Below are positions 50,570 through 53,506 of a DNA stretch of 64,000 nucleotides, piece by piece. The DNA is from Bacteroidota bacterium. Its GTDB lineage: Bacteria > Bacteroidota > Bacteroidia > 2-12-FULL-35-15. The translations under genes were made by a program, and so were the position numbers. Every line of letters begins with the position of its first letter. Position 1 is the first letter of the stretch. The notes beneath the pieces were generated by a model. The model saw only the letters and a list, made by a program, of their open reading frames with translations. It was not told the origin of the DNA and searched no databases. The DNA lies in NCBI GenBank assembly GCA_025963725.1, contig JAOQAE010000002.1:186001-250000 (forward strand), given 5' to 3'.

Positions 50570-51963
50570 TTATTTCTGAATGATCAGCCTTTTTACGCCG
50601 CTTACCTCAGCTGAAGAAAAGTGTACGATGTACATTCCTGCAGAAAGCCGGTCAAGGTTCAATTCTACATTGCCGCCGTTTGTTGCTTCGGTATACACTT
50701 CCTGCCCGGTAACGCTCATTACGCGGATAGTGCTGTTCTTTACAGCAGGTAATTCAAGGATCACTCTTCCTGAAGAAGGGTTCGGATAAATGCTGAAGTC
50801 GAAATTGTTTTCCGGCTGATCGTTTATTCCTGCAACAAGGGCTGTGGACAAACCTGTTGCCTGCACGGCAGTGGTTTTGTCAACTATTGTACCGTCGCTC
50901 AGCTGGCTGGAACCGTTGGCTCCCCAGCCCCAAAGCGTCCCGTCATTTTTCAGGGCAAGTGAATGTTCCGTTCCGCAGGCAATGGTATTGATGCCGCTGA
51001 TGCCGCTAACCTGCACAGGGCTTGTCCTCGATGTAGCTGTTCCATCGCCGAGCTGGCCGCTTGCATTTTTCCCCCATGACCAAACAGTGCCATCGGTTTT
51101 GAGCGCAAGTGAATGAAACTCACCGGCCCTTAATAAGGAAACACCGCTCACCCGGTAATTTGTACCGGCGTATGCTGCTCGGTGTTGGTTCCGTCGCCCA
51201 GCTGTCCGTCGGCATTTTTGCCCCACGACCATACTGTTCCGTCGTTTTTAACTGCAAGTGAATGCCAGCCGCCCGCTGCGATCTTTGTAACGTTTGAAAT
51301 GCTCACTACTACCGGTGAATACCTGTTTGTAGTGGTTCCGTCGCCAATACGGCCGTCGGCATTATATCCCCATGCATACAGTGTTCCGTCGCTTTTTAGG
51401 GCCAGGCAATGAAGGCTTCCGGCCGAAATGGCTGTAATTCCTGAAATGCCGGTTACCTGCACAGGCGTTGCCCTTACAGAAATGGTTCCGTCGCCGATCT
51501 CTCCGGCAAAATTGCTTCCCCAGCTCCATACTGTTCCATCGCTTTTTAAAGCAAGTGAATGATAGCCTCCCGCAGAAATAGCCACAATGCCTGAAATGGC
51601 AGCTACCTGAATCGGCGCCTCACGGTCGCCACCCGGCGTTCCGATCCCGAGGGAGGAATAAACGTTATAGCCCCAGGCCCATACGGTGCCATCGCTTTTC
51701 AGCGCCAGCGTGTGCGCTCCGCCACTGGAGACAGCGATCACTCCTGTGAGCCCGTTTACCTGTACAGGTGCGGCCCTGTTGGTATGTGTACTATCGCCCA
51801 ATTGTCCTTCGCCGTTATATCCCCATGACATTGCCGAGTTGTTATTACAAACGGAAATAGAAAAGTTAATGCCCCCGGAAATGGTTTGTGCGCTGGACTT
51901 TTGCGGCATAAAAAAGCATGCAGCGATCAAAAGTGATGCAACGTGTGTAGCTGTTTTGTTCAT
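50570..51963 (-). pseudogene. T9SS-sorted RCC1-propeller protein, split by a one-base frameshift
   Basis: Two open frames on the minus strand belong to one protein. 51963-51148 encodes the signal peptide and five RCC1 blades, ending 'HTPVQITG'. The second frame, usable from about 51150 to 50570, continues with 'VSGVSLLRAGEFHSLALKTD', two more blades and a type A sorting domain ('IYPNPSSGRVILEL', 'VKRLIIQK'). The break is at CCC 51151-51153: one more C restores 'ITG-VSGV' and a single 464-residue frame of 1395 bases. Joined, it has exactly seven RCC1 blades, a complete propeller. It is either a recent null mutation or a homopolymer sequencing error. Confidence 0.85.
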
Positions 51964-52126
51964 ATTATTTGTTTTAATTGTTAAGCTTCAAAGGTTGGAA
52001 AATAAGGGCCGAGAGTAAAGAGGGGATTGCGGTATTTTTATATCCGTACAGGTACGGAGATGCGGATGTTCCCGGGTGAACCACAAAAAAATAAGCTGCG
52101 GTTGGAGTTTATGAAAAATTAAATCA

Positions 52127-52134
52127 TACATTTG
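52127..52134 (+). promoter_or_regulatory. -7 box in front of the leader-like ORF
   Basis: TACATTTG is a full TAnnTTTG match, 18 bases before the ATG at 52153. A TTG at 52102-52104 is 22 bases upstream, slightly longer than the usual 19-20. Confidence 0.45.
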
Positions 52135-52152
52135 CCGCAGTTAAATAACAAA

Positions 52153-52266
52153 ATGACAACAGCGCTTACACTCATTTCCACTATTATTCCGGTGATCACT
52201 ATCACGGGGATGCGCTGGTATTGTCATAATTATATGCAGTTTCACTGCATTCACATCCGCAGCTAA
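52153..52266 (+). CDS. Thr/Ile-rich leader-peptide-like ORF (37 residues)
   Basis: The peptide starts 'MTTALTLISTIIPVITITG', six Thr and five Ile in its first 18 residues, closely resembling threonine/isoleucine attenuator leader peptides such as E. coli ThrL. The tail is rich in His, Cys and aromatic residues. Hairpin ATGCAGT-TTC-ACTGCAT falls near its 3' end (52230-52246). CTGC/GCAG segments around it could pair in alternative ways, and a T-rich run follows at 52291-52305. A second hairpin, AAAGGC-TCCG-GCCTTT, is at 52315-52330. The next gene, 80 bases on, is a PAS-SpoIIE phosphatase, not a threonine operon. The remaining upstream part of the gap (51964-52126) shows nothing. Confidence 0.45.
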   Translation: MTTALTLISTIIPVITITGMRWYCHNYMQFHCIHIRS

Positions 52267-52345
52267 CCTGCACGCTTTCTAAGCAAATCCTTTTTTTATT
52301 TTTTATTGCTCACTAAAGGCTCCGGCCTTTGTAATCTTTTTGATC

Positions 52346-53506
52346 ATGTCGTTAGTTACCGATAGCATCCTGGAAAAACTGAATAGTTTGATAGTGGTTG
52401 TGAACAAGCTTGGGAAAGTGGAATATGTAAGCCCTTCCGCAAAGCGGATCCTCGGCTTTGAGCCCGAACAGCTGATGGGCGATGGCTGGTGGAACCTCAC
52501 CCGCGACAACGAGCATGAGCGGAACGACATCCGCGCGCTTGCGCTCCGCCAGCTGAAGCAGGATTCGCTTGCCGAATCGCTGCCATACGAGCGGCTTTTA
52601 AAAACTGCGAATGGAGCGGAGAGGTGGATCCTCTGGAACACTTCCAAAGGCCCGCTGAACACGCTTGTAGGGATTGGCCACGATATCACCGACCGCAAAA
52701 AAGCGGAGCAGCGCCTCCTGGAAAAGAACAGGGAGCTGGAGCAGCATAACAAGGACATTACCGACAGCATCCAGTATGCGCGCGGCATCCAGAATGCGAT
52801 CCTCCCGGATGTGAATAAAATAAAAAGCACATTCAAGGATGCGTTTGTGCTGTACCTTCCGAAGGATGTGGTAAGCGGGGATTATTATTTTTTTTACAGG
52901 AATAAGAACAAGGTGTTTGTAGCGGCGGTGGATTGTACCGGGCATGGCGTTCCCGGCGCGCTGATGAGCATTATTGCAAACGGCATATTGAAGGAAGTGA
53001 TCATAAAGAAAGGAATAGAGGAGCCTTCCGAAATTTTATATGCGCTGGATGAAGAGCTTTTCCTGGCGCTCAACAGGCAGAACAGCGATGGCGTGACGAG
53101 CGACGGAATGGATGTGGCCATGGGCGTATTCGACCTGCAGGCAAACACGCTGAGCTATTCAGGGGCTTTCCGTCCGATGCTGATGGTGCGCAACAACGAG
53201 ATCATTGAATTCGATCCGAATCGTTACCCGATCGGATTTTACGGTGATGTGCAGAAAAGCTTTGTGTCGAGAACGATCGCGCTGGAAGAGAATGATACCT
53301 TTTACTTTTTTACGGATGGCTATTGCGACCAGTTTGGCGGAGAGCTGAAAAAGAAATTCAACAGGAAACGGTTCAAGGAACTGCTGCTCTCTGCGCAGTC
53401 GATGGAGATGGAGGAACAGGAATCATTCCTGCAATATGCCTTATTGAACTGGAGGCAGGAAGAGCCGCAGATGGATGATATACTGGTGATGGGCGTGAAG
53501 ATCTGA
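52346..53506 (+). CDS. PAS-domain SpoIIE/PP2C phosphatase
   Basis: A 386-residue cytosolic signalling protein. ATG 52346 is chosen; a TTG at 52340 is less likely. Residues ~8-125 are a PAS domain ('GKVEYVSPSAKRILGFEPEQ' and 'VGIGHDITDRKKAEQ'), followed by a coiled-coil helix ('ELEQHNKDITDSIQYARG') and a SpoIIE-type Ser/Thr phosphatase (~170-386). Its metal motifs are 'DCTGHGVPGALMS' and 'FFTDGYCDQFGG'. A sensor-regulated phosphatase probably acting on an anti-anti-sigma factor or other phosphoprotein, but no such gene is adjacent. It is preceded by the leader-like ORF and ends exactly where the convergent maf gene ends. Confidence 0.88.
   Translation: MSLVTDSILEKLNSLIVVVNKLGKVEYVSPSAKRILGFEPEQLMGDGWWNLTRDNEHERNDIRALALRQLKQDSLAESLPYERLLKTANGAERWILWNTSKGPLNTLVGIGHDITDRKKAEQRLLEKNRELEQHNKDITDSIQYARGIQNAILPDVNKIKSTFKDAFVLYLPKDVVSGDYYFFYRNKNKVFVAAVDCTGHGVPGALMSIIANGILKEVIIKKGIEEPSEILYALDEELFLALNRQNSDGVTSDGMDVAMGVFDLQANTLSYSGAFRPMLMVRNNEIIEFDPNRYPIGFYGDVQKSFVSRTIALEENDTFYFFTDGYCDQFGGELKKKFNRKRFKELLLSAQSMEMEEQESFLQYALLNWRQEEPQMDDILVMGVKI

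Follow-up and report, generated by a model that had tools for sequence, protein, structure and literature searches.

Among the classical attenuator leaders are TrpL, HisL, ThrL and IlvL, with the Rfam family Thr_leader (RF00506) covering the threonine case, and known attenuators link one pathway to its own product. Other leaders are less tied to a single pathway or lie closer in phylogeny. The toiL uORF of E. coli precedes topAI-yjhQ and, in the sections of the paper available, its regulation is described in terms of ribosome-targeting antibiotics, ribosome-binding-site occlusion and Rho (PMC12121999). Leader genes with ribosome reinitiation have been predicted in genomes that include those of Bacteroidetes, with a peak in Bacteroidetes at gaps of 11-14 bp to the gene, in the part of that study at hand (PMC4833913), and for structured 5' regions of Flavobacterium psychrophilum leader-peptide attenuation has been inferred before amino-acid biosynthesis operons, according to the accessible portion of the report (PMC9723704).

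The window analysed here, that is, the whole stretch of 64,000 nucleotides of Bacteroidota DNA, carries a short open reading frame (ORF) in front of a phosphatase gene. A previous reading made without database searches (the sequence-only reading) had claimed a 37-codon ORF, a -7 box, a 7-bp hairpin, CTGC/GCAG pairings, a T-rich run and a second hairpin, all of which are present in the sequence, and it had named the gene 3' of the ORF as a PAS-SpoIIE phosphatase, in which we found both the PAS and the SpoIIE domains. The Bacteroidota -7 promoter consensus is TAnnTTTG. The features are as follows, by position in the window:

52102-52104, + strand: possible -33 element TTG, 22 nt 5' of the -7 box
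52127-52134, + strand: -7 promoter box, TACATTTG, fitting the consensus
52153-52266, + strand: leader ORF from the ORF list, 37 codons and TAA (ATG at 52153, stop at 52264-52266), sequence MTTALTLISTIIPVITITGMRWYCHNYMQFHCIHIRS, with a counterpart at this position in 79 of 81 orthologs
52207-52263, + strand: candidate sensing zone, the last 19 codons, rich in Cys, Met, Trp, His and Arg, with no Asp or Glu
52234-52250, + strand: hairpin A, 7 bp, ATGCAGT ttc ACTGCAT, within the leader ORF
52259-52271, + strand: hairpin B, GCAG ctaac CTGC, whose loop holds the stop codon of the leader
52274-52284, + strand: hairpin C, GCTT tct AAGC, weak, 5' of the T-rich run
52291-52307, + strand: T-rich run, read from the sequence
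52314-52331, + strand: hairpin D, terminator-like, AAAGGC tccg GCCTTT and then T-rich, 14 nt 5' of the gene ATG
52346-53506, + strand: gene for the PAS-SpoIIE (PP2C-type) phosphatase, 386 aa, with DCTGHG and DGYCDQFGG motifs intact

From this layout the leader mRNA would be expected to start near 52140. The window's genome has at least 24 SpoIIE-like matches, this phosphatase among them, together with three short RsbW-like ATPases and two STAS matches, and judging from these, partner switching around the SpoIIE phosphatase may be possible. Two adjacent short RsbW-like ATPase matches lie about 5 kb before the window (G000:C7:180424-181459) and are possible partners of SpoIIE phosphatases. On the - strand, positions 50570-51963 of the window hold two overlapping RCC1-repeat-like ORFs in different frames, with Pfam RCC1 on the upstream one, which are possibly one frameshifted gene. 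In one relative, a Flavo-1 RNA (RF01705) was matched about 180 nt 3' of the phosphatase gene (L153:2822-2901), with 41.9 bits against a cut-off of 42.

Orthologs of the phosphatase, defined as best matches and not from a tree, were sought in 59 relatives, 395 genomes of the class, three families and one named locus, with E cut-offs that vary between the searches. An ortholog was found in 84 genomes and usable upstream DNA in 81; G025 (gene split over contigs), G456 (contig end) and G458 (partial match) were excluded, L065 and L071 are duplicates of G494 and G075, L014 and L072 were omitted as judged paralogs, and the related loci listed (at least 80) are mostly paralogs and were used as background only. 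The results showed that 79 of the 81 orthologs have a leader ORF of 20-45 codons, separated from the phosphatase gene by 38-100 nt, so the placement of the ORF before this gene, which the sequence-only reading had left to be looked for in relatives, is borne out. The start codons of the 79 leaders, picked partly by eye, were ATG in 59, GTG in 15 and TTG in 5. An exact TAnnTTTG box was found no more than 50 nt upstream of 62 of the 79 leaders, compared with 2.4% of background 50-nt windows, with a median of 10 nt from box to leader start in these 62, and a box with one mismatch stands before 16 further leaders, while no exact box occurs between the leader start and the gene start in any of the 79. 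It is because of this conservation that the leader features can be called more than chance.

The only clear case of a missing leader is G213 (locus L047), where the phosphatase gene lies directly 3' of a gene judged NUDIX-like by eye, an arrangement suggesting that the leader was lost when the gene joined another transcript; the uncertain leader of G507 was excluded from the 79. The downstream neighbours of the phosphatase vary among the 13 loci inspected. Carriers are a minority, amounting to 31 of the 395 class-sample genomes at E<=1e-100, and a phylum sample of 395 genomes searched at E<=1e-90 gave no ortholog beyond the window's own genome. Named carriers among the matches listed are all metagenome genomes, one of which is a Sediminibacterium sp.

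The arrangement recurs under eight family labels and in one unplaced genome, always before the same phosphatase. A profile built from 11 leaders and run against 36 congeneric genomes refound its ten congeneric members and one further leader, in G025, where the contig is split. Five weaker profile matches without stops (G028, G015, G004, G011 and G006; E up to 0.08) had no leader layout by eye, three further ones (G008, G001 and G005; E 0.003-0.042) hold internal stops, and among the five that were read no convincing copy of the leader was found elsewhere in these 36 genomes. These results contradict the proposal that the ORF is an orphan of a lost thr operon. Within the window no Rfam family, Thr_leader included, reached its threshold; a permissive Rfam search of six loci, with the window's region among them, gave nothing at the leader, the one sub-threshold Thr_leader match (E 0.93, in L052) being on the other strand and off the leader.

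The long ORFs at each locus served as the reference for the amino-acid composition of the leaders. Among the final 19 codons of the 79 leaders, Cys made up 9.9% in comparison to 0.9% in the long ORFs, Met 9.0% to 2.4%, His 6.0% to 1.7%, Trp 4.0% to 1.2%, Arg 11.2% to 3.3% and Ile 14.5% to 7.9% (1.8-fold), while Asp fell to 0.1% from 5.5%, Glu to 0.1% from 6.1%, Ala to 1.5% from 6.6%, Lys to 1.7% from 7.7% and Leu to 2.1% from 9.4%, with Val depleted as Lys and Leu are. The more abundant a residue is in proteins, the less it is enriched (Spearman -0.69, p 0.0008), and enrichment is greater for residues that are costlier to synthesise (Spearman 0.56, p 0.01). For the summed share of Cys, Met, Trp and His (CMWH), the excess begins about 19 codons before the stop and is mostly absent farther upstream. 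In the window's ORF the last 19 codons have 42.1% CMWH in frame and 10.5% in each of the other frames; over the last 16 codons of the leaders the share was 29.3% in frame in comparison to 9.6% and 8.1% in the other frames and 9.5% (sd 0.76) after nucleotide shuffling, and Asp and Glu together came to 0.2% against 4.6%. The leader's own frame was strictly highest in CMWH for 68 of the 79 leaders, with 6 ties, and highest for 22 of 23 representatives chosen at about one per genus. The in-frame bias recurs in each of the eight families and in the unplaced genome, the weakest group being genus g191 (16.7% versus 6.1% and 7.0% in the other frames). All four residues occur within the last 19 codons of 39 of the 79 leaders and at least three of them in 66, and the longest run of any one residue is only 1-2 in 65. 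The peptide sequence itself diverges strongly between families, and what persists is the make-up of the last 19 codons.

This composition bears directly on the proposal that the ORF is a ThrL-type attenuator peptide for Thr and Ile, or the relic of a lost thr operon, which we regard as the least probable of all the accounts weighed here. The N-terminal halves are indeed rich in both residues, with Ile at 19.1% and Thr at 13.0% (29 leaders from several families) in comparison to 6.6% and 6.2% in the window's long ORFs, and Ile is also raised in the last 19 codons. The description of the ORF as Thr/Ile-rich therefore holds for the N-terminal halves and fails for the stretch next to the stop, where Thr and Ile together are 10.5% in the window's ORF and Thr across the 79 leaders is 3.9%, below the 5.3% in proteins; the residues most enriched there are Cys, Met, His, Arg and Trp, and Thr and Ile are not supported as the signal. 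The position before the same phosphatase in all families examined and the fact that nothing in the window reaches the threshold of the Thr_leader family also speak against it.

Since Cys, His and Met are the classical ligands and are 3.5-11 fold enriched, a chain rich in them might act as a nascent-peptide sensor, through binding of copper, zinc or heme or through oxidation while on the ribosome; copper sensing by a nascent exported protein is the subject of one paper (PMC9973294). We consider this account improbable, as Arg, Trp and Ile are enriched as well and no conserved spacing or CxxC-type motif was seen by eye in two leader alignments. More doubtful again, and very unlikely in our estimate, is a small functional peptide (a membrane peptide, a cationic antimicrobial or a toxin) co-expressed with the phosphatase. 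A net positive charge with hardly any acidic residues, and an N-terminal half that looks hydrophobic by eye in the window's genus, would suit such a peptide, but its sequence and its length of 20-45 codons are highly variable, it is poor in Lys, Leu, Ala and Gly, which sets it apart from cationic peptides, and none of five leaders had an NCBIfam match.

The leaders were also identified by a blind rule that ignores composition, in which the last exact box with a fitting ORF was taken, with the first ATG or GTG within 45 nt and 14-60 codons. The rule found a leader in 60 of the 81 orthologs, missing 21, in comparison to 21 of 452 control open frames. A CMWH share of at least 20% was observed in 46 of the 60 ortholog leaders and in 2 of the 21 control matches (Mann-Whitney p 4e-8, a value that overstates independence because the sequences are related). 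One of the two CMWH-rich control matches is a leader with HHHH, MNLKKLHHHHFYNCSQASGK, followed by a GC-rich terminator-like hairpin and a U-run before hisG, and this textbook attenuator thus serves as a positive control. The site (L143:5873-6040) is in a Flavobacteriales metagenome genome and has the form of a classical His attenuator. The second such match, in L112, was rejected since it falls inside a coding frame, and so does a match in L141.

Selection on the leader was evaluated from differences between relatives. The pN/pS ratio was 0.56 for the leader frame (25 pairs) in comparison to 1.00 and 0.63 for the two off-frame readings, and strong purifying selection on the leader peptide was therefore dropped, the value being near that of one off-frame control. 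Among 53 single-base non-synonymous differences between close relatives (19 overlapping pairs, counted in both directions), the fraction leading into CMWH was 0.26 in comparison to 0.12 expected, and the fraction leading into Gly, Ala, Val, Asp, Glu, Leu, Lys or Gln was 0.11 in comparison to 0.35 expected. Since the differences favour CMWH and avoid the depleted set, it is the amino-acid class that is kept and not the sequence. The sequence-only reading had named a lack of conserved peptide codons as a refutation; this applies to exact residues only, while amino-acid class, frame and distance from the promoter are retained.

The 217-nt leader RNA of the window folds at -51.3 kcal/mol in comparison to -36.2 kcal/mol for dinucleotide shuffles (z -4.17; none of 200 shuffles as good). 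One could accordingly suppose a structured RNA element or a chance ORF for which translation is irrelevant, and the fact that pN/pS is only moderately below 1 would agree with it, but the composition bias is confined to frame 0 and sets in at a constant distance from the stop, and we give this account hardly any credence, slightly less than the functional peptide. Sliding-window folding of the 79 leaders showed one peak of structure about 24 nt upstream of the stop and another at the stop codon itself, followed by a weakly structured U-rich stretch and, where the spacer is long (n=32-39), by a third peak at the place of hairpin D. Hairpin D is the one terminator-like site in 600 bases, where 0.7 would be expected by chance, so it is weak by itself, and it was not seen by eye in the short-spacer family f41; for hairpin C, inspection by eye showed similar hairpins in relatives from f1 and f33.

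Hairpins at the stop codon are more frequent among the leaders than expected: against mononucleotide shuffles, a stem at the stop codon had p<=0.05 in 16 and p<=0.1 in 25 of the 79 leaders, and exceeded p 0.1 in the other 54, the window's own (p 0.114) among these. Their sequences differ widely (CTATTGTAT/ATACAATAG, GATGTGG/CCACATC, GCGATAA/TTATCGC and ATGCG/CGCAT), and where an ortholog has a clear stem, the loop contains or adjoins the stop codon, as in hairpin B. In a group of 10 relatives 90% of the cells of this stem pair, one of its four pairs is seen as G-C, C-G and U-A, and its covariation score was equalled by 1 of 500 shuffles. In eight sequences including the window, changes on both sides were observed in three of the seven pairs of hairpin A and one pair of hairpin B, and the total of four over hairpins A, B and C was equalled by 3 of 500 shuffles; of the hairpins, whose covariation the sequence-only reading had asked to check, C shows no such pair. 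A U-run follows the stop-codon stem directly in some orthologs and not in all, G075 and G435 being among the few where a stem with a U-run was visible by eye, and the stems are weak in many.

The segments GCAG-CTGC-GCAG-CTGC alternate within 52236-52271 of the window, and the GCAG of hairpin B could pair instead with the CTGC of hairpin A (52245-52248). Across the 79 leaders general alternative pairing between A and B is unsupported, as the region between the two peaks is less structured, and the folding model gave no support for an antiterminator pairing; classical alternative pairing is not supported as a general feature. In the folding model, a ribosome stalled in the last five codons abolishes hairpin B and one at the sixth halves it, stalls at codons -8 to -12 give 3.2-3.6 expected B pairs in comparison to 2.9 with no ribosome, and stalls farther upstream alter B little.

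In general, the small ORF, the promoter box and the hairpins are real, and we are highly confident that the ORF is a leader under codon selection. That leader and its tie to the phosphatase make ribosome-based sensing of amino acids in stress signalling a sound idea, and in this the proposal of charged-tRNA sensing by the sequence-only reading survives, without support for Thr and Ile as its signal. On balance we favour, with some reserve, a ribosome-sensing leader that would answer a shortage of any of several scarce amino acids and set the expression of a stress-type phosphatase. Translation in vivo, stalling, the direction of control and the choice between termination and translation control are parts of this account that we infer. 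The ORF would be translated and would serve as the regulatory leader of the phosphatase mRNA, whose transcription may start a few bases 5' of it, and the last 19 codons or so would be the sensing zone, with one or two codons for each of the scarce amino acids Cys, Met, His, Trp and Arg, along with Ile, Tyr, Asn and Pro, and no run of a single residue. When an aminoacyl-tRNA is short, or the ribosome is slowed otherwise, it would linger in the zone and cover hairpin A or B, which would alter the fold before the gene and most likely allow transcription or translation of the phosphatase. Under good supply the ribosome would leave, hairpin B would form ahead of the U-rich tract, with hairpin D adding to B in the window's genus, and expression would stay low. 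Starvation raising the phosphatase is the favoured direction because a stalled ribosome would remove hairpins that precede the U-rich tract.

A ribosome covers about 14 nt ahead of the A site, and stalls anywhere from codon -18 to the stop would hence touch hairpin A or B. This range matches the position of the rare codons and fits a control of fold and expression by the position of the ribosome. What the folding model explains is limited to stalls within the last 5-6 codons, and since stalls at -8 to -12 spare hairpin B, only geometry links the remainder of the zone to hairpin A. The depletion of Lys, Leu and Val counts against a starvation sensor, which could use these residues, and the Thr/Ile-rich N-terminal halves count against the reading in terms of scarce amino acids. 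A general sensor of translation stress, in which rare codons form a slow stretch reporting ribosome inhibition by antibiotics, cold or loss of energy, as proposed for toiL, is unlikely although credible: no amino acid dominates, runs are of 1-2 residues in most leaders, and toiL is, as far as the sections available go, a precedent for a multi-purpose uORF (PMC12121999), but the selection on amino-acid class and the near-total exclusion of Asp and Glu exceed what slow decoding needs.

Within the preferred account of scarce amino acids, a more specific form is plausible, although we would stop just short of calling it probable, namely that the zone is roughly the inverse of the composition of the proteome, so that shortage of any of five to nine scarce residues would trigger a PP2C-type stress phosphatase, while Glu, Asp, Gly and Ala, which central metabolism supplies, would be ignored. 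If true, a group of mostly uncultured Bacteroidota would possess, next to the stringent response, an RNA-based sensor of general starvation that acts in cis, and general amino-acid limitation would be wired directly to SpoIIE-type signalling through one ORF of 25-38 codons. Selection acts here on amino-acid class, across eight families and upstream of a signalling protein. The signature, a frame-specific excess of Cys, Met, Trp, His and Arg without Asp or Glu before the stop, is usable as a search rule and could find leaders that similarity tools would miss. No report of such a leader was found in the literature searched, to which subscription journals were mostly external.

Compared with the known systems, the leader resembles the classical attenuators in being a short ORF just past a promoter with candidate sensing codons near its end, and in having hairpins and a U-rich tract between leader and gene. 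It differs from them in that the stop codon lies in or at a stem loop where a clear stem exists, and from the TrpL/ThrL class in that there is no cluster of codons cognate to a downstream operon, only mixed rare residues with few runs, and in that the downstream gene encodes a signalling phosphatase and is not a biosynthetic operon. The Thr operon leader RF00506 gave no match at threshold, and its Thr/Ile codons near the leader end are absent here. As far as the available parts of the reports allow, toiL is similar in that one uORF is able to report several kinds of ribosome stall before a non-metabolic gene, whereas here the codons strongly favour scarce amino acids and many families share the arrangement (PMC12121999). 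On the same partial basis, the reinitiation leader genes are likewise predicted leader ORFs before structural genes, with gaps that peak at 11-14 bp in Bacteroidetes in comparison to 38-100 nt here (PMC4833913). The F. psychrophilum case shares the phylum and the inference of leader-peptide attenuation, but those leaders precede biosynthesis operons, and section 19 of that report names no SpoIIE phosphatase (PMC9723704). The leader thus works like an attenuator but fails the defining feature of the TrpL/ThrL class, and it is best filed with the ribosome-sensing leaders, as a variant.
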